Notes under the pieces: generated by a model
Databases searched by the model: none
Seen by the model: the letters and a program-made list of their open reading frames with translations, nothing else
Told to the model about the DNA's origin: nothing
Origin: an uncultured Pelagibacteraceae bacterium
Lineage (GTDB): Bacteria > Pseudomonadota > Alphaproteobacteria > Pelagibacterales > Pelagibacteraceae
DNA: 34,878 nucleotides
Assembly: GCA_902598315.1 (NCBI GenBank)
Contig: CACKBP010000008.1
Location: 1 to 34,878 of the forward strand
Reading direction: 5' to 3'
Position numbers and translations under genes: made by a program
In this document: positions 3,148 through 32,630 of the stretch, piece by piece
Position numbering within the stretch: the first letter of the stretch is position 1
Layout of the letters: each line of letters opens with the position of its first letter

Positions 3148-4228
3148 AGTTATTTTAAATTATCTTTTGAATGGATATATAAAAAATTTTTTAAAAGTTT
3201 TTTTATTTTTTTATACATTTGGAATAATTTTAAATCTATTTGAAGAGATTGAATTCTTTAAAAATCTCGATGTATCGATTTTTACTCCATTAATTATGAC
3301 AAGTATTTACATTCCAGGTATGATGGTAAATTTAATGCCTTTTATAATTTTTATTACCAGTATGAAATTTATTGTTGATATTAGAAACAATAAAGACTTG
3401 CTTACTATGAAGGTATTTGGATATTCAAATTTTAAGATATTCATTATTCTTGCCTTCACATCTTTTATTCTTGGATGGTTAATACTATTCTTTGTAAATC
3501 CATTTACATCGGCAATGTCAAAATATTATGAAAAAACTAAATCAAACTATTCTAGAGATATAGACCATTTAGTAACTTTCAATAATAATGGACTATGGAT
3601 TAGAGAAAATTTAGAAAAAGGTCATAGAATAATAACAGCTTCTAAATATGAGGGAAAAACATTAAAAGATATTACAATTTTTAACATCGATGAAAATCAT
3701 AATCTTAATGAAAGAATTTTTTCAAAATATGCAAATATTGAGAAAAATGAATGGATTTTAAATGATGTTACAATTTTAAAAATTAATAATTTTGATCAAG
3801 ATGAAGTAAGTTTAGAAAATAAAAGAATAAGTTCAATATATACTTATAATAAAATTATTAATTTGTTCAAAAAATTAGAGACATTGTCATTTGTTGATTT
3901 AATTATAAATTATAATAAATTGATAAATCAAGGTTATACAAAGATTTTCCTTAATCAAAGCTTGCACTCGATGCTTTCAATGCCTTTTTTTCTATTCATT
4001 ATGACAGCATTAGCAGCTACTCTTGTAATGGGAACATTAAAAAAGTCTAATAATGTGAGAGTAATATTTGTTGGTATAATTACTTGTGTTTTAATTTATT
4101 ATTTAAAAGATTTATCTGTAGCCATTGGACAAACTAATCGAATTTCTTTAACTCTGGCAACTTGGATACCAATCTTAGTTATTGGTATGTTTAGTTCAAT
4201 AGGTATATTGCAAATAAATGAAAAATAG
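3140..4228 (+). CDS. lptG: LPS export ABC transporter permease LptG
   Basis: Second permease of the LptB2FG complex, paralogous to LptF. At 362 residues it has the same plan: two to three N-terminal membrane segments (IKNFLKVFLFFYTFGIILN; IYIPGMMVNLMPFIIFITSM; a third near 105), a central periplasmic jellyroll-like domain, and three C-terminal helices beginning LSMPFFLFIMTALAATLVMG. The block PGMMVNLMPF corresponds to the conserved coupling region of LptF/G. It overlaps lptF by 8 bases and lptD by 11, so the three are translationally coupled. LptB, LptA and LptC are not in this window. Confidence 0.92.
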   Translation: MNRVILNYLLNGYIKNFLKVFLFFYTFGIILNLFEEIEFFKNLDVSIFTPLIMTSIYIPGMMVNLMPFIIFITSMKFIVDIRNNKDLLTMKVFGYSNFKIFIILAFTSFILGWLILFFVNPFTSAMSKYYEKTKSNYSRDIDHLVTFNNNGLWIRENLEKGHRIITASKYEGKTLKDITIFNIDENHNLNERIFSKYANIEKNEWILNDVTILKINNFDQDEVSLENKRISSIYTYNKIINLFKKLETLSFVDLIINYNKLINQGYTKIFLNQSLHSMLSMPFFLFIMTALAATLVMGTLKKSNNVRVIFVGIITCVLIYYLKDLSVAIGQTNRISLTLATWIPILVIGMFSSIGILQINEK

Positions 4229-6524
4229 TATTTTAATATTTATAATTTTATTACTTTTTAAAAGCTTAGCTTCAGCTAATGAGTTAGATATAAGTGCAAA
4301 AAATATTTCTATAGATAAAAAAAATCAAATTTCAACGTTTAAAAATGAGGTGGTAATTAAAGATGATTTTGGAAACACTATAGAAACTGATAATGCCATT
4401 TATAATAATGAAAAAAAAAATTTGGAAATTATTGGTAAAGCAACAATTTTAACATCAGAAGGTTATTTTGTTGAGACTGAGGATTTGAGATTGGATAAAA
4501 ATAAAAATATCGCTTATTCAGATAAATCCTCTACAATTTTAGATAACCAGAAAAATAAAATATATTTAGAAAATTTTCATTATACTTTAAACAAAAATAT
4601 TTTTAAATCTATTGGAAAAATAAAAGTCGTAGATAAATCCGATAATTATTATGAATTTACTCAAATATATATTAATGAAAAGAAAAAGGAATTAATAGGC
4701 TCTGATTCTAAAGCATACTTAAATGATAAAAGTTTAAAAGTTAACAAAAATAATAAACCTAGAATTTTTTCTAATTCTATAAGCATAAAAGAAAACGATA
4801 CAAATTTTTTTAAGAGCACATTTACTATGTGTGATTACAGAGCAAATGATAAATGTCCTCCATGGCAATTAAGTGCAACTTCAATGAAGCATGATAATAT
4901 TAAGAAGACTATTTATTATGATAATGCAGTAATTAAAGTTTACAATATACCAATCTTTTATTTTCCCAAATTGGCGCATCCTGACCCCACTGTTAAAAGG
5001 CGAAGCGGACTACTTGTTCCGACTTATTTAGATACAAAAAATTTAGGCTCAGGGATATCGCTTCCTTATTTTTGGGCCATAAGTAACGACAGAGACTTTA
5101 CTTTTAAAAGTAAGTTATTTGCAAGTGAAAATCCTTTACACCTAGGGGAATACCGTCAAGCTTTCAAAAATTCTAATTTAATTTTTGATTTTGGTTATAC
5201 CGAAGGTTATAAAAAAACAACTAGTACCAAAAAATCTGGTGACAAATCACATTTTTTTGGAAAATTCACTAACAGTTTTATTTCAGGAAAAAATAATGAA
5301 AACAATTTAGAAATTAGCTTACAGGAGGTATCAAATAGAAAATATCTTAAATTGTATAGAGTAGAATCTGAGCTTGTTGATTACGAAACTAATACATTAG
5401 AAAATTTTGTAAATTTTGATCATTATAATGATGAGAAAGATTTTTTCTTAGCTTTTAAATCAAGTATGTATAGAAATTTAAGTGACACATACAATGATAA
5501 ATACGAGTTTATTTTACCTGATATCAATTTTAATAAAAATCTATACAACGAAAATTTTGGTAATGGAAATTTAAACTCAAATTTTAAAGTAAGAAATTAT
5601 GATACAAATAAAACTGAAAAATTTTTTATAAATGACTTTGACTGGGAGTACGATAAATCGTTTACAAAATTACCCTATGATGGAAAAGTTCTTTTAAACC
5701 TTAAAAATGTTAATTATGAAATCAATAATGTTGAAAAATTTAAAAAAGATACTACAAGTGAAATATTCGGCTCATTGGGTTATTTAGCTAATCTCAATTT
5801 AATCAAGGAACAAGCAAATGGAACTGACCATCTTTTAAAACCAAAAATTTTGTTGAGATATTCTCCAAATCACATGAGAAAAGAAACAGGTGATTATAGC
5901 CTTTACAGAGAAAATATATTTTCACTGAATAGGTTGAACTCCTCATCAAATTATGAAAGTGGAAGTAATTTGACATATGGATTTGATTACGAAATGGATG
6001 GTGAAAGTCATATAAATTTCTCTATAGGTCAAATTATCAACGAAAAGAAAAATAATAGAAATATGCCAGACTCATCAAGTTTGGACAAAAGATTTTCAGA
6101 TATTATTGGTAACTTTGGGTTCTCTAAGGATAATTTTAACTTCAACTATAATTATTCATTAGATCAAAATTTTAATGAAATGAATTATAATGAAGCGACT
6201 GCAAAGTATTCTTTGAGTAACATCAAGTTTAATCTAAATTATTTAGAAGAAGACAAAGTAGACAATCAGAAAGAATATTTCAAATCATCTATTGAATTTA
6301 AAAAAGGTGAAAACGGTTTATTATCATTTAATAATAAAAGAAATATGATAACTAATTCGTCAGAATATTATAATTTAAGTTACGAGTATATTAATGATTG
6401 TTTAAGAGCCGGATTAGTTTACAGACGAGAGTTTTATAACGACTCGGAACTCGAACCAGAAAATTCCTTAATGTTTAAAATAACATTAAGTCCGTTTGGA
6501 GAAATTGCTTCACCTAAGTTTTAA
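4218..6524 (+). CDS. lptD: LPS-assembly outer membrane protein LptD
   Basis: Outer-membrane beta-barrel that, plugged by LptE, inserts LPS into the outer leaflet. A signal peptide (KNSILIFIILLLFKSLASA) is followed by an OstA/LptA-like N-domain with short beta repeats (about residues 22-190). The LptD linker signature TMCDYRANDKCPPWQL comes next at 203-218, then a Tyr/Asn-rich barrel of many alternating strands to the C-terminus. At 768 residues it is similar to other LptDs. The C-terminal NDCLRAGLVYRREF matches the usual late-barrel Cys region. Only three cysteines are present (205, 213, 728) against four in E. coli, so the disulfide pattern must differ. It overlaps lptG by 11 bases and is followed one base later by surA. 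Confidence 0.93.
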   Translation: MKNSILIFIILLLFKSLASANELDISAKNISIDKKNQISTFKNEVVIKDDFGNTIETDNAIYNNEKKNLEIIGKATILTSEGYFVETEDLRLDKNKNIAYSDKSSTILDNQKNKIYLENFHYTLNKNIFKSIGKIKVVDKSDNYYEFTQIYINEKKKELIGSDSKAYLNDKSLKVNKNNKPRIFSNSISIKENDTNFFKSTFTMCDYRANDKCPPWQLSATSMKHDNIKKTIYYDNAVIKVYNIPIFYFPKLAHPDPTVKRRSGLLVPTYLDTKNLGSGISLPYFWAISNDRDFTFKSKLFASENPLHLGEYRQAFKNSNLIFDFGYTEGYKKTTSTKKSGDKSHFFGKFTNSFISGKNNENNLEISLQEVSNRKYLKLYRVESELVDYETNTLENFVNFDHYNDEKDFFLAFKSSMYRNLSDTYNDKYEFILPDINFNKNLYNENFGNGNLNSNFKVRNYDTNKTEKFFINDFDWEYDKSFTKLPYDGKVLLNLKNVNYEINNVEKFKKDTTSEIFGSLGYLANLNLIKEQANGTDHLLKPKILLRYSPNHMRKETGDYSLYRENIFSLNRLNSSSNYESGSNLTYGFDYEMDGESHINFSIGQIINEKKNNRNMPDSSSLDKRFSDIIGNFGFSKDNFNFNYNYSLDQNFNEMNYNEATAKYSLSNIKFNLNYLEEDKVDNQKEYFKSSIEFKKGENGLLSFNNKRNMITNSSEYYNLSYEYINDCLRAGLVYRREFYNDSELEPENSLMFKITLSPFGEIASPKF

Positions 6525-14454: not shown

Positions 14455-16914
14455 ATGTGGTTATATATTTATAAAAAATTGGTTTTAGATTACTCAAAAT
14501 TAACTCTATTCTTATTATTGTTAATATTGTGCTTTTCATTTTATCAGGCTAAAAATTTCAATCTTGATGCCTCATCAGATGCCTTGCTTTTAGAGGGAGA
14601 TAGAGATCTAAAATATTTAAGACAGATAAATGATAGATATGGAGCAAAAGATTTTTTATTTCTTACCTACTCTCCAGTTTCAAGTTTTATAGATAAAGAG
14701 ACTATATTAAATTTACAATTACTGAAGTCTAAAATTGAAAAGCTTACATGGGTTGATAGCGTAATCACTATTATTGACGTTCCTCTTTTAAAAAGCACAG
14801 ATGAAGGATTAATGGAAAGATTAAAGAATTTTAAAACATTAGCTTATCCAGAAATTGATAAAAAAAGAGGTTTTGAAGAAATTTTAGAGAGTCCAATTTA
14901 TAGAAATTACGTTATCAGTGAAGATGGTAAGACATCAGGAATAGTAGTTTATTTAAAGAAAGATGAGAGGCTAGAAGAATACATTAAAGTTAGGGAACAA
15001 TATCATAACCAGGATGTAGATATTGGACTGACAAAAGAGGAAAAAGTAAATTACAAGAATTTTATAAAAGAATACGAAAATTATAAAAATCTATATAATT
15101 TAAGAAATCATCAAAACATTTCAGAGATCAGAGATGTCATTGGTAAATACGGTAATAACGCTAAAATTCATTTAGGTGGAATACCAATGATAGCTGATGA
15201 TATGATGAGCTTTATTAAAAATGATATACTAGTTTTTGGTGCTGGAGTCTTTATTTTTATAATCTTAACTCTTTGGTTTATTTTCAGAAATATAAAATGG
15301 GTTTTAATACCTCTATTAGGTTGTGCCACATCCGTTATTATCATGATTGGCTTATTAGGTTTAATAGGATGGAAAGTAACAGTAATCTCCTCAAATTTTA
15401 TAGCTTTGATGTTAATATTGAATATGGCAATGAATATTCATGTCACAGTAAGATTTCTGCAATTAAAAAAAGAGAGTCCCCAACTACAGAAAAACGATGC
15501 AGTTTTAGAAGCAAGTAAAAAAATGATTTTGCCTATTTTATATACTGTATTAACAACAATTTGCGCGTTTTTGTCATTAATTTTTAGCGAGATAAAACCA
15601 ATTATAGACTTTGGTTGGATGATGACTTTGGGTCTAATTGTTTCTTTAATTGTTACGTTTTTACTATTACCAAGTTTGTTAAATATTTTTTCATCTGAAA
15701 ATGAGATAAATGTAAAAGATACGGAAAAATCATTAATAACTTCTATGCTAGGAAATATCGCTAAGAAGAATCAAAATATAATATTTGGTTTAACCTTTAT
15801 AATCATAATTACTAGTTTATACGGTGTCTCAAAGCTGGAAGTAGAAAATAGTTTCATAAATTATTTCAATAAAGAAACTGAAATTTACAAAGGTATGAAA
15901 AAAATAGATGAAGATCTTGGCGGAACTACTCCTCTTAATGTCGTAATCAAGTTTCCAGTGATAAAAAAAGAAACCACTGATGATGAATTTTCAGAATGGG
16001 AGGAAGATGTTGATAAAAATGCAGAGAAAGAAAAATACTGGTTTACAAGAGACAAAATGGACAAGATTTTAAGAGTTCACGATTATTTAGACTCATTGCC
16101 AGAAATTGGAAAAGTTCTGTCATTTGGATCTATATTAAGAGTTGCTGAAGATCTTAACAAAAAAGAGTTGCAAAGCTTAGAAATAGCTGTGCTTTATAGT
16201 AAAATACCTGAAACAATCAAAAAAGAGATAATTTCACCTTATATTTCTGTTGAACAAGATGAGGCTCGTTTAGTGGTTAGAATAAAAGACTCGTTGCCAA
16301 ACTTAAGAAGAGATGACCTCATAAAAAAAATAAATTATGAAATGAATACAAAGTTAGGTTTTAAAAAAGATGAGTATCAACTTGCTGGAGTATTAATTCT
16401 TTTTAATAATTTGTTACAAAGTTTATTTAAATCTCAAATCCTTACTTTAGGAATAGTGATGTTAGGTATTTTTGGAATGTTTTTTATATTATTTAGAAAT
16501 TTGACACTTTCTTTTATTGGTATAGCGCCAAATTTCCTTGCTGCGTTTTTCATACTTGGTCTAATAGGTTTATTGGAAATACCCCTAGATATGATGACAA
16601 TAACTATAGCTGCTATCACGATTGGTATAGCTGTTGATAATAGTATTCATTATATTTACAGATTTAGAGAAGAATTTAAAAAAATTAGAAATTACAATAA
16701 AACGTTAGATAGATGTCACAAAACTGTGGGCATTGCTATACTGAATACCTCTATAACTATAGTATTTGGATTCTCTATACTTGTTCTTTCAAACTTTATT
16801 CCGACTATTTATTTTGGAGTATTTACTGGAGTTGCTATGTTGCTGGCTATGATATCTGTACTTACTTTACTGCCTAAGCTTTTGCTAATTTATAAACCTT
16901 TTGGAAGTGAATAG
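14455..16914 (+). CDS. RND-superfamily exporter (MMPL/HpnN-like), substrate unknown
   Basis: Inner-membrane transporter with two RND repeats. Each half has one membrane helix, a large periplasmic domain and a cluster of about five helices: TM1 about 15-31 and a cluster about 252-410; then TM7 about 440-460 and a cluster about 665-815. The second cluster has the MMPL motif TIGIAVDNSIHYIYRF. The segment DASSDALLLEGDRD after TM1 is typical of the predicted exporters of the RND superfamily, a group that includes the hopanoid transporter HpnN. At 819 residues it is full length. It has no adjacent membrane-fusion partner and no hopanoid genes are nearby, so the substrate cannot be named. It sits between dnaB and cvpA, where I expect alr and radA in many alphaproteobacteria. 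cvpA follows after 8 bases. Confidence 0.85.
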   Translation: MWLYIYKKLVLDYSKLTLFLLLLILCFSFYQAKNFNLDASSDALLLEGDRDLKYLRQINDRYGAKDFLFLTYSPVSSFIDKETILNLQLLKSKIEKLTWVDSVITIIDVPLLKSTDEGLMERLKNFKTLAYPEIDKKRGFEEILESPIYRNYVISEDGKTSGIVVYLKKDERLEEYIKVREQYHNQDVDIGLTKEEKVNYKNFIKEYENYKNLYNLRNHQNISEIRDVIGKYGNNAKIHLGGIPMIADDMMSFIKNDILVFGAGVFIFIILTLWFIFRNIKWVLIPLLGCATSVIIMIGLLGLIGWKVTVISSNFIALMLILNMAMNIHVTVRFLQLKKESPQLQKNDAVLEASKKMILPILYTVLTTICAFLSLIFSEIKPIIDFGWMMTLGLIVSLIVTFLLLPSLLNIFSSENEINVKDTEKSLITSMLGNIAKKNQNIIFGLTFIIIITSLYGVSKLEVENSFINYFNKETEIYKGMKKIDEDLGGTTPLNVVIKFPVIKKETTDDEFSEWEEDVDKNAEKEKYWFTRDKMDKILRVHDYLDSLPEIGKVLSFGSILRVAEDLNKKELQSLEIAVLYSKIPETIKKEIISPYISVEQDEARLVVRIKDSLPNLRRDDLIKKINYEMNTKLGFKKDEYQLAGVLILFNNLLQSLFKSQILTLGIVMLGIFGMFFILFRNLTLSFIGIAPNFLAAFFILGLIGLLEIPLDMMTITIAAITIGIAVDNSIHYIYRFREEFKKIRNYNKTLDRCHKTVGIAILNTSITIVFGFSILVLSNFIPTIYFGVFTGVAMLLAMISVLTLLPKLLLIYKPFGSE

Positions 16915-16922
16915 CTTAAATA

Positions 16923-17471
16923 ATGGTTGAAAACTTTTTAGAGAAAATTTACGAAAACATAAATTTATTTGATACATGTTTCGTAATAATTTTATTATAT
17001 TTCATTATACAATGTTTTATTAAAGGTTTTTCTTTAAGTTTAATATATTTTATGAAATGGGTGATCTCAACAGTGATAACGATTATTCTTGTTCCTAAAC
17101 TTCGACCTACAGTTGGTAATTATATCGAATCAGAATTTGTCAACAGCGTGGGGCTGGGAGTCTTAATTTTTGTTTTAACGCTGTTTATTATTATTGTACT
17201 AGGTAAAGCTATTGGAAGAGCGGTAACTTGGACCGGTGTTGGCCCTATTGATAAATCATTTGGCTTAGTATTTGGTATTTTTAAGGGTTATGTGGTTTCT
17301 GTCTGTGTATTTTCCATATTAAATTGGTTTTATCCTTATCAGAATTGGGGTATATCAGCAGATAAGGCTTACTCTTTTAACATTATTTTAAAAGGTAGTG
17401 AAATTTTAGTTGAGGAGTTTCCATCAAGTGAAGAATTCATAGATACGAAAGAAAAAATTGAGAAAATCTGA
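16923..17471 (+). CDS. cvpA: CvpA-family inner-membrane protein
   Basis: Multi-spanning membrane protein of the family first named for colicin V production, whose biochemical role is unresolved. At 182 residues about four hydrophobic segments are visible (FVIILLYFIIQCFIKG; a second near residue 45; GLGVLIFVLTLFIIIVLGK; VFGIFKGYVVSVCVFSILNW). The family hallmark is present as DKSFGLVFGIFKGYV. It sits directly before purF, the classic cvpA-purF arrangement, and purF starts 14 bases before its stop. Confidence 0.9.
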   Translation: MVENFLEKIYENINLFDTCFVIILLYFIIQCFIKGFSLSLIYFMKWVISTVITIILVPKLRPTVGNYIESEFVNSVGLGVLIFVLTLFIIIVLGKAIGRAVTWTGVGPIDKSFGLVFGIFKGYVVSVCVFSILNWFYPYQNWGISADKAYSFNIILKGSEILVEEFPSSEEFIDTKEKIEKI

Positions 17472-18909
17472 TCAAGATAAATTAAGGGAGGAATGTGGTA
17501 TTTTTGGAGTCTCAGACCACTCTGACTCTTCAGCATTAGTAGCTTTAGGTTTACACGCCTTACAACACAGAGGTCAGGAAGGATGTGGAATTGTTTCTTT
17601 CGATGGGAAAAATTACCACTCAGAAAAACGACAAGGACTAATTGGAGATCATTTTACCAATCCTGAAGTCATAAAAAAACTACCTGGTAAATTTGCAATT
17701 GGACATAATAGATATTCTACAACTGGTGGAACATCTTTAAGAAATATTCAGCCCTTTTTTGCAGATTTGCACATGGGTGGATTAAGTATTGCTCATAATG
17801 GAAACTTAACAAATGCTTTATTTCTTAGAGAAAACTTAGTTAAGGATGGTGCGATATTTAGAACCACTACTGACACTGAAACAATCGTACAGCTAATAGC
17901 TAAATCAAAAAGAGATAAATTTTTAGATAAATTAATTGACACATTATTTCAAATTCAGGGGGGTTACTCTTTAGTAATTATGACAAATAAAAAACTTGTA
18001 GGCGTAAGAGACCCTTTTGGTATTAGACCTTTAGTAATAGGAAAATTGAATAATTCTTTCATATTTGCATCAGAAACATGTGCATTAGATATTGTTGGAG
18101 CAAAATTTTTAAGGGAAGTTGAAAATGGTGAGATCGTTGTGGTAGAAAATAATCAATTGAAGAGTATTAAACCTTTTCCTAAGCAAAGACAAAGACCCTG
18201 TGTATTTGAATATATCTATTTTGCAAGGCCCGATAGTTTTATAAATGGAAAATGTGCATATGAATACAGAAAAAAACTTGGATACGAATTAGCAAAAGAG
18301 GCGGATTTAGATGCTGATTTAGTTGTACCTGTTCCAGATTCTGGGGTAGCTGCTGCAATTGGTTATGCTAATTATTCAAAGAAAACATTTGAAATGGGTC
18401 TAATCAGAAATCATTATGTAGGTAGAACTTTTATTGAACCAAGCCAAAATATTAGAAGTTTTGGGGTCAAACTAAAATTAAATTCTACTAAGTCAATTAT
18501 AAAAGATAAATCTATAATATTAATTGATGACTCTTTAGTGAGGGGAACAACATGTCACAAAATAGTAAAAATGCTATATGAGGCTGGAGCAAAAGATGTT
18601 CATGTAAGAATAGCGTGTCCAGAAATTAAATATCCTGATTTCTATGGTGTTGATATGCCTACAAAAAGTGAGTTATTGGCCCACAACAAAACAAATGAGG
18701 AAATGTGTGATTACATAAATGCTAAAAGTTTAAAATTTTTGAGTTTGGAGGGTTTGTATCAAGGTTTGATTGGTGAGAAAAGAAATTCAATCTACCCTCA
18801 ATTTAGCGACCATTATTTTACAGGTGAATATCCCATTAAGCCAACAGATGATATGCAAGGTTTAAGAATACAACAATTGTCTTTATTAAGCGTTAAATCT
18901 AATAACTAA
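17458..18909 (+). CDS. purF: Amidophosphoribosyltransferase (PurF), predicted to lack the Fe-S cluster
   Basis: Commits PRPP to purine synthesis using glutamine-derived ammonia. The Ntn glutaminase domain begins at Cys13 in EECGIFGV and continues through HNRYSTTGG and IAHNGNLTNA; the PRPP loop is LIDDSLVRGTTCHK (355-368). The start is TTG at 17458, inside cvpA, because no ATG precedes Cys13; the twelve residues before the Cys would be a propeptide, removed as in Bacillus subtilis PurF. The sequence follows the Bacillus type (RNHYVGRTFIEPSQ). Of the four Fe-S ligands of that type, the equivalent of Cys236 is kept (Cys248 here), the equivalent of Cys382 is Asp394, and the C-terminal CxxC before FTG is Ser450/Tyr453. 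The gene converges on bamB with a 4-base overlap. Confidence 0.96.
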   Translation: MRKSDQDKLREECGIFGVSDHSDSSALVALGLHALQHRGQEGCGIVSFDGKNYHSEKRQGLIGDHFTNPEVIKKLPGKFAIGHNRYSTTGGTSLRNIQPFFADLHMGGLSIAHNGNLTNALFLRENLVKDGAIFRTTTDTETIVQLIAKSKRDKFLDKLIDTLFQIQGGYSLVIMTNKKLVGVRDPFGIRPLVIGKLNNSFIFASETCALDIVGAKFLREVENGEIVVVENNQLKSIKPFPKQRQRPCVFEYIYFARPDSFINGKCAYEYRKKLGYELAKEADLDADLVVPVPDSGVAAAIGYANYSKKTFEMGLIRNHYVGRTFIEPSQNIRSFGVKLKLNSTKSIIKDKSIILIDDSLVRGTTCHKIVKMLYEAGAKDVHVRIACPEIKYPDFYGVDMPTKSELLAHNKTNEEMCDYINAKSLKFLSLEGLYQGLIGEKRNSIYPQFSDHYFTGEYPIKPTDDMQGLRIQQLSLLSVKSNN

Positions 18910-23085: not shown

Positions 23086-23508
23086 TTATTTTTTTGATAA
23101 ATCTTCAATTTCTATTTTAAGTTTTTGGCTTTTTTCGCAGAATTTTTTGCATATATCAATTAAGCTGTCATTTAATTCTTTGCTCTTTTTATAGTCTGAG
23201 GTTTCTAATTTTAATTTTGCTAAATTATAAATAGCTTCCTCATTTTTTGGATTAAGTAAAATAACTGTGTTTAAGTTTTGCTCCTGTAAATCTTTATTAT
23301 CCAAGTTTTTGAAAATTTTGGATAGATATAGATATGACATCTCACTTTTTGGATTAAAAACTATGTCTTGTTCAAATTTAAATTTGGCTTTTTCAAAGTT
23401 TTTATTTTTATAAAAATTAATTCCTTCTTTAAAATATTCAGTATTAGCAAACAATAAATTTGGAATAAATAATGTTACTAAAAATATGTTTAAAAACTTA
23501 ATTTTCAT
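23086..23508 (-). CDS. Small secreted TPR protein between guaB and guaA
   Basis: I do not recognise a specific family. The 140-residue protein has an N-terminal signal peptide (KIKFLNIFLVTLFIPNLLFA) and then tandem helical repeats with TPR character: FKEGINFYKNKNFEKAKFKF, SYLYLSKIFKNLDNKDLQ and AIYNLAKLKLETSDYKKSKE. The tail is Lys/Glu-rich and may form a coiled coil. A periplasmic protein-binding role is possible. Its ATG overlaps the guaB stop as ATGA and its own stop abuts guaA, so it is coupled to two cytosolic purine enzymes with which it has no obvious link. It is too short to be a full BamD or YbgF. Confidence 0.8.
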   Translation of the reverse strand: MKIKFLNIFLVTLFIPNLLFANTEYFKEGINFYKNKNFEKAKFKFEQDIVFNPKSEMSYLYLSKIFKNLDNKDLQEQNLNTVILLNPKNEEAIYNLAKLKLETSDYKKSKELNDSLIDICKKFCEKSQKLKIEIEDLSKK

Positions 23509-24584
23509 AATTTATAATTAATTGTTTTTTCTGTCATTTCAACACTATGCACCATACTTTCATAGAATCCAGCTTTTGTAATTTTTATAAACTTTGCATT
23601 TTTTGCTATTTGTTCTAATTTTTTTGCTCCTATATATCCCATAGAGGAACGTAAACCGCCTTTCAATTGATAAATTATTTTTGAAACATTTCCTTTATAT
23701 TCTACCCTTCCCTCAACTCCTTCTGGTACAAATTTAGATTTATCTTTAAAATTTTTTTGAAAATACCTATTAGCTGATCCAGAAGACATTGCTCCGATAG
23801 AACCCATTCCTCTATATTGTTTATAAAATTTTCCTTTAAATTTAAATTTCTTTCCTGGACTTTCATTAGTTCCTGCAAATATTGATCCCATCATTATCGC
23901 ATCTGCACCGGCTGCTAAGGCTTTTGCTATATCACCAGAAAATTTAATACCGCCATCTGAAATTAGTTTTATTTTTTTTCTCTTTAATTCATTCTTAATT
24001 TCCATAATTGCAGAAATCTGTGGAACACCTATGCCTGCAACCATTCTTGTAGTGCAGATTGATCCAGGTCCTATTCCAATTTTAATTATATCAGCACCAG
24101 AATTATACAATCTTTTTGCAGCCTCTCCAGTAGCTATATTTCCTACACATAAAGAAGTGGATTGATCAATTTTTTTTAGTTTTGACAAGGTCTGTAAGAC
24201 TTTCTCGCTATGACCATGAGCTGTGTCTATTACTATTAAATCACATCCATTATCAATTAATGATCTGGCTCTCTCTATATCTTCCTTGCTTGTGCCCACT
24301 GCGGCTCCGACAATTAATTTTTTTTTCTTAACTTTTAAAATTTCATCAGTTTGTTTTTTAATATTAAGATTTCGGTGAATTATGCCTATGCCTCCTGCCT
24401 CTGCCATTGCTATTGCCATTTTGGACTCTGTCACTGTATCCATGGCAGAAGATAAAAATGGTACCTTTAAATGAATTTTATTTGATAACTTAAGTGAAAT
24501 ATCTGTTTCAGAGGGCAAAACGTCCGAATATCTTGGAAGGAGTAAAACATCATCAAAAGTTAAAGATTCTTTAATTGTTACCAT
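23505..24584 (-). CDS. guaB: IMP dehydrogenase lacking the CBS (Bateman) domain
   Basis: Oxidises IMP to XMP with NAD, the branch point to guanine nucleotides. At 359 residues it is well under the usual ~490. The barrel starts normally (LTFDDVLLLPRYSDVLP, SSAMDTVTESKMAIAMA) and runs to GGIGIIHRNLNIKKQTDEI at 64-82. It then passes after a few Lys residues to LIVGAAVGTSKED, with no room for the two CBS motifs. The catalytic loop GIGPGSICTTRMVAGIG carries Cys177, and the flap has NRYFQ and KFVPEGVEGRVEYKG. These mark it as IMPDH rather than GMP reductase, which also lacks CBS but has a different loop and flap. Without the Bateman module, adenine/guanine nucleotide control through it should be absent. 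Confidence 0.94.
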   Translation of the reverse strand: MVTIKESLTFDDVLLLPRYSDVLPSETDISLKLSNKIHLKVPFLSSAMDTVTESKMAIAMAEAGGIGIIHRNLNIKKQTDEILKVKKKKLIVGAAVGTSKEDIERARSLIDNGCDLIVIDTAHGHSEKVLQTLSKLKKIDQSTSLCVGNIATGEAAKRLYNSGADIIKIGIGPGSICTTRMVAGIGVPQISAIMEIKNELKRKKIKLISDGGIKFSGDIAKALAAGADAIMMGSIFAGTNESPGKKFKFKGKFYKQYRGMGSIGAMSSGSANRYFQKNFKDKSKFVPEGVEGRVEYKGNVSKIIYQLKGGLRSSMGYIGAKKLEQIAKNAKFIKITKAGFYESMVHSVEMTEKTINYKL

Positions 24585-30668: not shown

Positions 30669-31025
30669 TTAATTTGTCTGCTTTTTATCGTTATCTACAA
30701 CAACACATATTTCTGATTTTGTGAGAAATCTTTGTCCAGTACCATTATCTAGCGAGAACATTCCTCCAATTCCCTTAACTGCATCAATTGTAAGGTCTGT
30801 ATGTTTCCATTTTTCATACTGATCCTCATTCATGTAAAAAGGAGTTCCATCTACTTCTCCCAGTTTTACATCGCTATTGCCTACTTGATATTCTTTAGCT
30901 GGAAAACACATAGGTGCGCTACCATCGCAGCATCCGCCTGATTGATGAAATAGAAGATCGTCACCGTGAACTTCTTTAATTTCGTTAAGTAATTTTTTCG
31001 CTGATAATGTGAATGATACCTTCAT
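30669..31025 (-). CDS. DUF779 protein, partner of aldehyde dehydrogenase
   Basis: Small conserved protein of unknown activity often found next to NAD aldehyde dehydrogenases of the acetaldehyde type. The hallmark is FHQSGGCCDGSAPMCF, a Cys-rich segment that could bind metal or react with thiols, followed by LGEVDGTPFYMNEDQYEKWK. I chose ATG at 31025 (118 residues) because it aligns with the family's first strand (KVSFTLSAKKLL) and leaves the strong hairpin outside the gene. ATG at 31043, six codons earlier, is in frame but lies inside the hairpin's stem. The dehydrogenase gene ends 51 bases upstream, so the two form a small operon. Confidence 0.9.
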   Translation of the reverse strand: MKVSFTLSAKKLLNEIKEVHGDDLLFHQSGGCCDGSAPMCFPAKEYQVGNSDVKLGEVDGTPFYMNEDQYEKWKHTDLTIDAVKGIGGMFSLDNGTGQRFLTKSEICVVVDNDKKQTN

Positions 31026-31036
31026 TTGTATATTTC

Positions 31037-31061
31037 GGCCCATGATTTAGAATCATGGGCC
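31037..31061 (-). promoter_or_regulatory. Perfect 11-bp intercistronic hairpin
   Basis: On the transcribed (minus) strand GGCCCATGATT pairs with AATCATGGGCC around a 3-base loop. The hairpin lies between the dehydrogenase stop and the DUF779 start. No U-run follows the stem, so it does not look like an intrinsic terminator. It could stabilise the upstream message, limit translation of DUF779, or act as a processing site. Confidence 0.75.
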
Positions 31062-31076
31062 ATTATATATTATTGG

Positions 31077-32630
31077 TTAAAAGAAGCCTAATTTTTTCTC
31101 ACTGTAAGATACGTGTAAGTTCTTAACTTGTCTATAATGATTTAACATCATTTTGTGAGTTTCTCTTCCAATACCAGATTGTTTGTATCCGCCAAATGCA
31201 GCGTGAGCTGGGTATGCATGGTAACAGTTTGTCCAAACTCTACCTGCTTCTATACCTCTACCCATTCTGTAAGCAATGTTTCCGTCTCTAGTCCAAACAC
31301 CTGCTCCTAACCCGTAAAGAGTATCATTAGCTATCTCTAATGCTTCTTTCTCATCTTTAAACGTCGTAACTGATACAACTGGTCCAAAGATCTCTTCTTG
31401 GAATATTCGCATGTTGTTTTTTCCCTCGAAAATTGTTGGTTGGATATAGTTTCCTTTTTCAAGACCGCTATTTATTTTTGCTTGACTTCCACCACACAGA
31501 ACTTTGGCACCTTCTTTTTTACCTAAGTCTAAATAAGACTTAATTTTTTCCATTTGTTCTAGTGAAGCTTGAGCTCCAATCATAGTTTCCATTTTTAAAG
31601 GATTGTCTTGTTTCACAGCTTTCGTTCTTGCAATAGCTTTTTCCATGAATTTGTCATAGATAGATTTTTGAATTAAAGCTCTGCTTGGACAAGTACAAAC
31701 TTCTCCTTGGTTAAGCGTAAACATAGCAAAACCTTCTAAACATTTATCAAAGAAGTCGTCATCTTTAGACATAACATCTTCGAAGAAAATGTTTGGTGAT
31801 TTACCGCCTAGCTCCAAAGTAATTGGTATTAAGTTTTGAGATGCATACTGCATAATCAAACGTCCAGTAGTAGTTTCACCAGTAAAAGCGATCTTCTTAA
31901 TTCTTTTTGAAGAAGCTAAAGGTTTACCTGCTTCAAGACCATAACCACTTACAACGTTTACAACACCTGCTGGTAATAGATCTCCAATAAGTTCCATTAA
32001 AAGCATAATTGATGCGGGTGTTTGTTCGGCTGGTTTTAATACCACACAGTTTCCCGCTGCCAATGCTGGAGCTAGTTTCCATGTAGCCATTAATAATGGG
32101 AAGTTCCATGGTATAATCTGACCAACGACACCTAATGGTTCTGGTATGTGGTAAGAATATTCGCTGTTACTGATTTCAGCAACTGATCCTTCCTCTGCTC
32201 TTATTACTCCTGCAAAATATCTCCAATGATCAATTACCAAAGGTAAATCGGCAGCCATACATTCTCTAATTGGCTTACCATTGTCTAGACATTCTGCTGT
32301 CGCTAAAACGTTCAGATTTTTCTCTATTACATCAGCAATCTTTAAGAGTATATTTGATCTCTCAGTGATTGATGTTTTTCCCCAAGCAGGAAATGCTGCG
32401 TGGGCTGCGTCAAGAGCAAAATCTACGTCCTTTTCATTCGATCGTGGCACCTTACAGATAACTTCATTAGTGATAGGAGTAGTATTATCAAAATACTTTC
32501 CAGATTTAGGTTCTACAAATTTTCCGTTTATGTAGTTTCCATATTTAGCTTTAAATGGAAATTTAACCTTCAAATGAGAGGTATCTAAAGATGAAGACAC
32601 TTTCGGGCTTGATGCTTGTTGTGTACTCAT
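31077..32630 (-). CDS. NAD-dependent aldehyde dehydrogenase (AldB/ExaC acetaldehyde type)
   Basis: Oxidises an aldehyde to the acid. Relatives with the same active-site string and a DUF779 neighbour act on acetaldehyde or other short aldehydes. At 517 residues it is full length. [17 protein letters not shown] (172-188) and KPAEQTP form the cofactor site; Glu273 in [15 protein letters not shown] and nucleophile Cys312 in [14 protein letters not shown] are the catalytic pair; [10 protein letters not shown] follows. A very strong Shine-Dalgarno-like AAGGGGGAAA precedes ATG at 32630, suggesting high expression. Upstream is a palindrome that could be an operator. The gene and its DUF779 partner lie between recA and alaS, which are near each other in many alphaproteobacteria. 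Confidence 0.93.

Follow-up and report, generated by a model that had tools for sequence, protein, structure and literature searches.

The window analysed here, a 34,878-nucleotide stretch of DNA from an uncultured Pelagibacteraceae bacterium, encodes a Bacillus-type PurF in which, to judge from its sequence, the ligands of the iron-sulfur cluster are gone yet the propeptide (ending KLREE directly before the catalytic cysteine) is kept, a new combination that is outside the two-class scheme of these enzymes. We consider it highly probable that this is an otherwise ordinary PurF of the Bacillus, plant and animal type, whose ancestor deep in the Alphaproteobacteria lost a structural [4Fe-4S] cluster, the cavity left behind being repacked.

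The purF gene, its ligand columns and its propeptide

The purF open reading frame runs from a TTG start at 17458 to a stop at 18909 and encodes a complete PurF of 483 amino acids. Residues 13-459 match the whole of the PurF equivalog profile TIGR01134 (positions 1-432 of 432) at 479.6 bits, the cut-off being 350, and a match to Pfam Pribosyltran lies just below its cut-off (24.9 bits; cut-off 26.3). The catalytic N-terminal cysteine and the PRTase domain are both found: Cys13 aligns with Cys1 of Bacillus subtilis PurF (1ao0), the translation contains the loop LIDDSLVRGTT, presumably the PRPP loop, and the structural match to PurF extends over the whole length. The best matches in a sequence search of the PDB were Arabidopsis GPRAT2 (6lbp; 466 bits) and B. 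subtilis PurF (1ao0; 430 bits); Escherichia coli PurF (1ecb) scored 314 bits. The features discussed below are:

16923 to 17471, plus strand: cvpA (Colicin V production protein family; PF02674, 85.7 bits), overlapping the start of purF by 14 bases
17458 to 18909, plus strand: purF, encoding an amidophosphoribosyltransferase (glutamine PRPP amidotransferase) of the Bacillus type that lacks three of the four [4Fe-4S] ligands
17458 to 17493, plus strand: predicted propeptide of 12 residues, with TTG start, ending DKLREE, ahead of the catalytic Cys13
17494 to 17496, plus strand: nucleophile Cys13 (mature Cys1), aligned to Cys1 of 1ao0
18199 to 18201, plus strand: Cys248, in the column of B. subtilis ligand Cys236; kept
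18637 to 18639, plus strand: Asp394, in the column of B. subtilis ligand Cys382; lost
18805 to 18816, plus strand: Ser450-Asp451-His452-Tyr453, in the C437-x-x-C440 column before FTG; both cysteines lost and Ala439 replaced by His

Alignment with the mature 1ao0 sequence places B. subtilis C236, C382, C437 and C440, which have cysteine at exactly these numbers and which we take to be the cluster ligands, opposite C248, D394, S450 and Y453 of the window PurF. The segment before FTG aligns without gaps, the CxxC there being CLAC in B. subtilis. The residues and numbering given by a sequence-only reading of this DNA were therefore right, and the full set of four cysteine ligands that marks B. subtilis-class GPATases is not found in the window PurF. 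Sequencing error can be ruled out as the source of the missing cysteines, since the same C-D-SDHY (columns 236, 382 and 437-440) recurs in the PurFs of 20 further genomes that share the window's genus code, which makes 21 of 21 rows with the window (repeats included). Nor are the cysteines conserved at shifted positions, an outcome that the earlier reading had singled out for checking: among 63 aligned alphaproteobacterial PurFs, Cys13 is the sole invariant cysteine, with C208 and C248 nearly so. The retained cysteine at column 236 says nothing about a cluster, because the cluster-less E. coli PurF, whose ligand columns read C-N-ECSV, also has cysteine there. We infer from the residues in these columns that the window PurF binds no cluster.

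An AlphaFold2 model of the window PurF has a mean pLDDT of 86.3, with block means of 84 to 98 across residues 391-460. Using VIA-align, the model matches 1ao0 with Z 49.0 (447 residues, rmsd 2.5), 6lbp with Z 48.7 and E. coli PurF with Z 45.3. The predicted fold is thus that of PurF; the side-chain arrangement in the former cluster region is outside what the model shows. Indeed, a model of a PurF with all four cysteines (locus L014), made as a control, is much alike in confidence (pLDDT 86.2) and in the order of its elements, and as AlphaFold models contain no cofactor, such a model cannot tell a bound from an unbound state.

We refer below to PurFs with (T/S/A)-D-H-(C/Y) before FTG, usually with Asp at column 382, as the DH type; aligned rows were assigned to it by D438-H439. 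The propeptide that marks the B. subtilis class is present in the window PurF (12 residues ending KLREE), which therefore differs from the E. coli class, defined by having neither propeptide nor cluster, and it also lacks the kinship with E. coli PurF. The TTG at -12, the window's only in-frame ATG, GTG or TTG upstream of Cys1, is shared by every one of the 21 rows from that genus (repeats included). Of the rows readable upstream, 171 of 183 distinct DH-type and 78 of 81 four-Cys ones have Glu at -1. Conservation of these two features in DH rows indicates that the propeptide outlived the ligands. Zalkin and co-workers reportedly found that ligand mutants of B. subtilis PurF block processing; if so, the DH type must process its propeptide differently. 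An ATG directly before Cys1 occurs only in rows without a full ligand set, namely three loci of family f24 (L077, L089, L090), L021, L070 and E. coli. In the f24 loci, and in L021 of family f33, ligand loss goes together with absence of the propeptide.

A CvpA-like ORF lies upstream of purF in all eight loci, of both PurF types, that were inspected by eye. An MMPL/HAE3-type RND transporter gene (14455-16914, plus strand) lies between dnaB and cvpA in the window, and at several other alphaproteobacterial loci the ORF 5' of cvpA resembles, by eye, the end of radA. Downstream of purF, on the opposite strand, are panB, guaA and an IMP dehydrogenase gene (23505-24584, minus strand). The usual IMP dehydrogenase is longer and carries a pair of CBS domains; the protein encoded here has only 359 residues, spanned by the IMPDH Pfam domain, with no CBS-domain match listed. 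Elsewhere in the window, a DUF779 gene directly adjoins an aldehyde dehydrogenase gene (30669-31043 and 31077-32630, minus strand), and a 768-residue protein without a Pfam match is encoded directly after two LptF/LptG genes (4218-6524, plus strand); from its position it is possibly a divergent LptD. Among the matches listed, the closest named relatives of the window PurF are from Pelagibacteraceae loci, most at ~68-72 % identity, and the window adjoins Pelagibacteraceae loci on a tree of 148 rows, which points to a genome of the SAR11 type. One scan of viral contigs with the window protein returned no viral copies.

Distribution and ancestry of the DH type

To place the window PurF among its relatives, we read 78 near-complete PurFs (77 loci and the window) from an even draw of 115 genomes across the class, leaving out G025, in which the gene is split over two contigs, and the partial hits in G046, G048, G071 and G077. 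All four cysteines are kept in 63 of the 78, mostly as CDAC-FTG. Thirteen, including the window, are of the DH type (ten with Asp and three with Cys at 382), and the other two ligand losses are L021 (D-C-EDSV), which has no His439 and seems to have lost its ligands independently, and L070, whose PurF is E. coli-like. The latter PurF (genome G022, family f23) has no propeptide, and three other sampled members of the family (L294, L300, L301) are of the four-Cys type; it was possibly gained by horizontal transfer. Closer to the window, 35 other genomes scored above the cut-off; the PurFs of 34 of them were fetched (all but G413), and every one is of the DH type, as is the window itself; together they comprise 21 with SDHY, from the window's genus, and 14 with TDHC, from a sister family.

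A motif pattern for the DH type matched 46 of 385 genomes of the class and, in a draw across the phylum, 39 of 398, all 39 in the window's class. This pattern misses some DH rows and has no match in the window's own genome; indeed, of 24 pattern-negative genomes that were read further, five have a DH-type and 19 a four-Cys PurF. A motif scan of named genomes gave at least 120 loci, 115 of them with a PurF ORF (repeats included) and most from named Alphaproteobacteria; among the matches listed, no PurF ORF came from L162, L179, L186, L245 or L258, and that of L160 is without the motif part. The orders represented among the matches listed are Hyphomicrobiales, Caulobacterales, Hyphomonadales, Maricaulales, Parvularculales, SAR116 and Pelagibacterales, and the genera include Rhizobium, Ensifer, Caulobacter, Hyphomonas, Devosia, Bosea, Methylosinus and Brevundimonas. 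At the locus of a single Flavobacteriaceae motif match we found no PurF ORF, and two MAG contigs, one assigned to Dadabacteria and one to Verrucomicrobiales, sit within the marine alphaproteobacterial part of the 148-row tree, so that misbinning is a more likely explanation than real occurrence in those groups.

At column 439, His counts of 76/76 and 208/208 in DH rows are true by construction, and fair counts are those from rows not picked by motif. On this basis, His439 in place of Ala, a new observation, accompanies the loss of Bacillus-type ligands in the class draw, being present in 13 of the 14 Bacillus-type rows without C437 (the exception is L021) and in none of the 63 four-Cys rows. 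It is likewise present in 34/34 of the fetched relatives and in 5/5 of the further losses found without the motif pattern, and absent from all 82 four-Cys rows (repeats included), where the residue is Ala and once Gly. When 76 thinned DH rows were compared with 63 four-Cys rows (repeats included), the columns that differed most, besides 437 and 439, were 378, 235 and 382, where I stands for T, P for F and D for C (the last in 68/76), all of them in or beside the ligand segments in sequence. Within the DH type, a search for columns co-varying with C/Y440 gave no clear partner.

Several trees bear on the age of the loss. The 148-row tree was built without the ligand columns and the C-terminal motif, its Arabidopsis row being labelled by hand with the 437 column unread. 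One starred clade of this tree takes in 75 of its 80 DH rows (repeats included), with two C-C-TDHY groups (f9 with L174; f62) lying outside it, and the tree needs three changes of state. E. coli PurF sits on a far branch, and the window lies among alphaproteobacterial Bacillus-type enzymes, far from both E. coli PurF and the E. coli-like L070. This position, together with the bit scores (314 for E. coli against 466 and 430 for GPRAT2 and B. subtilis), rules out an E. coli-type origin; with the retained propeptide, it also bears out the earlier proposal of a ligand loss inside the Bacillus-type lineage, one that is probably ancient.

Whether the loss occurred once is answered somewhat differently by each tree. 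In a careful tree of 63 rows, which includes 40 of the larger tree's 80 DH rows and roughly one in three of its cluster rows, the DH rows do not form one clade and there are three changes of state; a single DH clade is nevertheless not rejected by AU tests on this set (p 0.20 for 36 core rows; p 0.31 for all 40). A 135-row tree with more cluster-type rows, built quickly and with no bootstrapping, unites its 55 DH rows in a single clade (SH-aLRT 99) with one change of state. These two trees omit four rows with long branches and the two E. coli-like rows. The mapping of the loss that the sequence-only reading had called for thus gives one DH clade in the 135-row tree and a less clear picture in the 148-row and 63-row trees, and a single loss of the cluster ligands in the DH type is likely from these data. 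The order of changes can be glimpsed from C382, which survives in f92 (C-C-TDHC, near a poorly resolved base), f9 and f62; C437 and A439 therefore probably changed before C382 or apart from it. Column 440 requires ten changes of state and column 382 three (E. coli-like rows included). Family code f175 contains both types, four-Cys PurFs at L282-L284, L292 and L295 and a DH-type PurF at L303, and a CvpA-like ORF lies upstream of purF at L282, L295 and L303 (by eye), which suggests that purF was replaced in place, in either direction.

Possible explanations: a repacked cavity, an exchanged metal or saved iron

In the explanation we favour, loss of the structural cluster followed by repacking, the change that a large set of alphaproteobacteria share is C437 to T, S or A with A439 to H, joined mostly by C382 to D and, in several lines, by C440 to Y. 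The cavity between the ligand loops would be repacked by His439, Tyr/Cys440 and Asp382 with the neighbouring F235P and T378I, and the C-terminal FTG segment could stay docked without iron. The glutaminase and PRTase domains are kept in DH-type PurF, and the propeptide would still be removed autocatalytically, exposing Cys1, with no need for a cluster. Oxygen-sensitive, cluster-dependent inactivation has been described for B. subtilis PurF; it should be absent from the DH type, and an aerobic ancestor may have been under selection to tolerate oxygen or to save iron.

Against plain repacking, His439 is conserved more tightly than the mere filling of a cavity would need, and of the 191 distinct DH rows with all four letters none is without a cysteine there: one is left in 98, two in 89 and three in four. 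A different explanation, which we regard as unlikely though worth stating, is that the ligand shell was rebuilt as a mononuclear site for Zn2+, Fe2+ or Mn2+ by C/D236, D/C382, H439 and C/Y440, a site that would retain a structural metal without being oxygen-labile. Such an exchange of [4Fe-4S] in situ for an oxygen-stable metal would free propeptide autocleavage from iron; to us this, too, has an outside chance. In every DH row with a letter, columns 236, 382 and 440 hold solely metal-capable residues: the 194 distinct rows have C 181 times, D ten times and three gaps at 236, D 184 times and C ten times at 382, and C 99 times and Y 95 times at 440, although 156 of the 208 DH rows came via patterns requiring D-H-(C/Y), which fixes C or Y at 440 there just as the DH definition fixes H439. 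The 52 rows not picked by pattern use the same letters, but they are fewer and mostly close kin. ("Distinct" counts merge 14 pairs of loci that show no difference in the stretch compared, which begins at Cys1; eight of these pairs are one gene fetched twice.) His439 does accompany loss of C437 in the rows not picked for His, yet L021 lost C437 without it. Also in favour of such a site, D236 never occurs with Y440 (0/10 distinct D236 rows), but this exclusion rests on few independent events. Against it, the window PurF retains a single cysteine.

That the change suits life in iron-poor surface water, as the sequence-only reading had proposed, is not supported, and an adaptation specific to SAR11 is in our view very improbable. 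It is true that PurFs of the window's genus belong to those with one cysteine of four (C-D-SDHY, 21/21, repeats included) and that the genomes of several DH families in the class draw are small. However, the same motif is common to Rhizobium, Ensifer, Devosia, Bosea, Methylosinus and Brevundimonas, rhizobia and Caulobacteraceae being among its bearers, and to f171 genomes, which measure 7.5 to 8.8 Mb; Rhizobiaceae, too, have rows with a single cysteine (C-D-TDHY); and in the 135-row tree the window groups with non-SAR11 DH rows in one clade. SufB is still encoded in the window's genome, which therefore still makes iron-sulfur clusters. As the change reaches far beyond marine lineages and SufB remains, oceanic iron saving is unlikely as its origin. 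A passage search in the main text of a study of iron limitation in Ca. Pelagibacter ubique gave no mention of purF (PMC2864753).

Least probable of all, and barely credible for the window, is a [4Fe-4S] or [2Fe-2S] cluster still bound via non-Cys ligands (Asp382, His439, Cys236, Cys/Tyr440): clusters with Asp or His as ligands are known from other proteins and the C-C-TDHC rows (four distinct) retain three cysteines, but the window's shell of one Cys, Asp, His and Tyr would be an implausible one.

The DH type beside known PurFs

The purpose of the PurF cluster has long been unclear, and it is not known to take part in the reaction as a redox group. The DH type offers a large natural group beside four-Cys relatives in the same class and even under the same family code (f175), with intermediate rows that still retain C382 or C440. 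Pairs of DH and four-Cys enzymes would allow a direct test of any need for the cluster, be it in processing, stability, feedback inhibition or the response to oxygen. Were the metal exchange true, it would be a natural case of cofactor replacement in situ. A practical caution is that alphaproteobacterial PurF should not be annotated as an iron-sulfur protein from homology. By title and start of abstract, we found no open-access paper on a cluster-less, propeptide-bearing alphaproteobacterial PurF, most classic PurF work being outside that scope, and the passages found in PMC8594446 have nothing on the PurF cluster.

According to PMC7056826, PurFs fall into two classes, that of B. subtilis with propeptide and Fe-S centre and that of E. 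coli with neither. The window PurF shares with the B. subtilis enzyme (1GPH, 1AO0) the fold, the catalytic Cys1, the propeptide and the PRTase domain, but where that enzyme has C236, C382, C437 and C440 and an Fe-S centre (PMC7056826), the window has C, D, S and Y. Arabidopsis GPRAT2 (6LBP), its best sequence match in the PDB, likewise has a propeptide and, in the crystal structure, a 4Fe-4S cofactor in each molecule, seen without the propeptide (PMC7056826), whereas the window PurF is without three of the ligands. Human PPAT also carries 4Fe-4S and was seen without the propeptide, according to PMC13421311. The four-Cys PurFs of Alphaproteobacteria belong to the same class, with the same propeptide pattern and, for most, ~50 to 57 % identity to the window, but they have all four cysteines (63/78) and Ala, once Gly, at 439, where the window has His. 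E. coli PurF (1ECF and others) has no cluster (PMC7056826) and resembles the window in its Cys at column 236; unlike the window, it has no propeptide (ATG directly before Cys1), reads C-N-ECSV and lies on a distant branch. As read from its sequences, the DH type is thus a third combination, a propeptide without cluster ligands.
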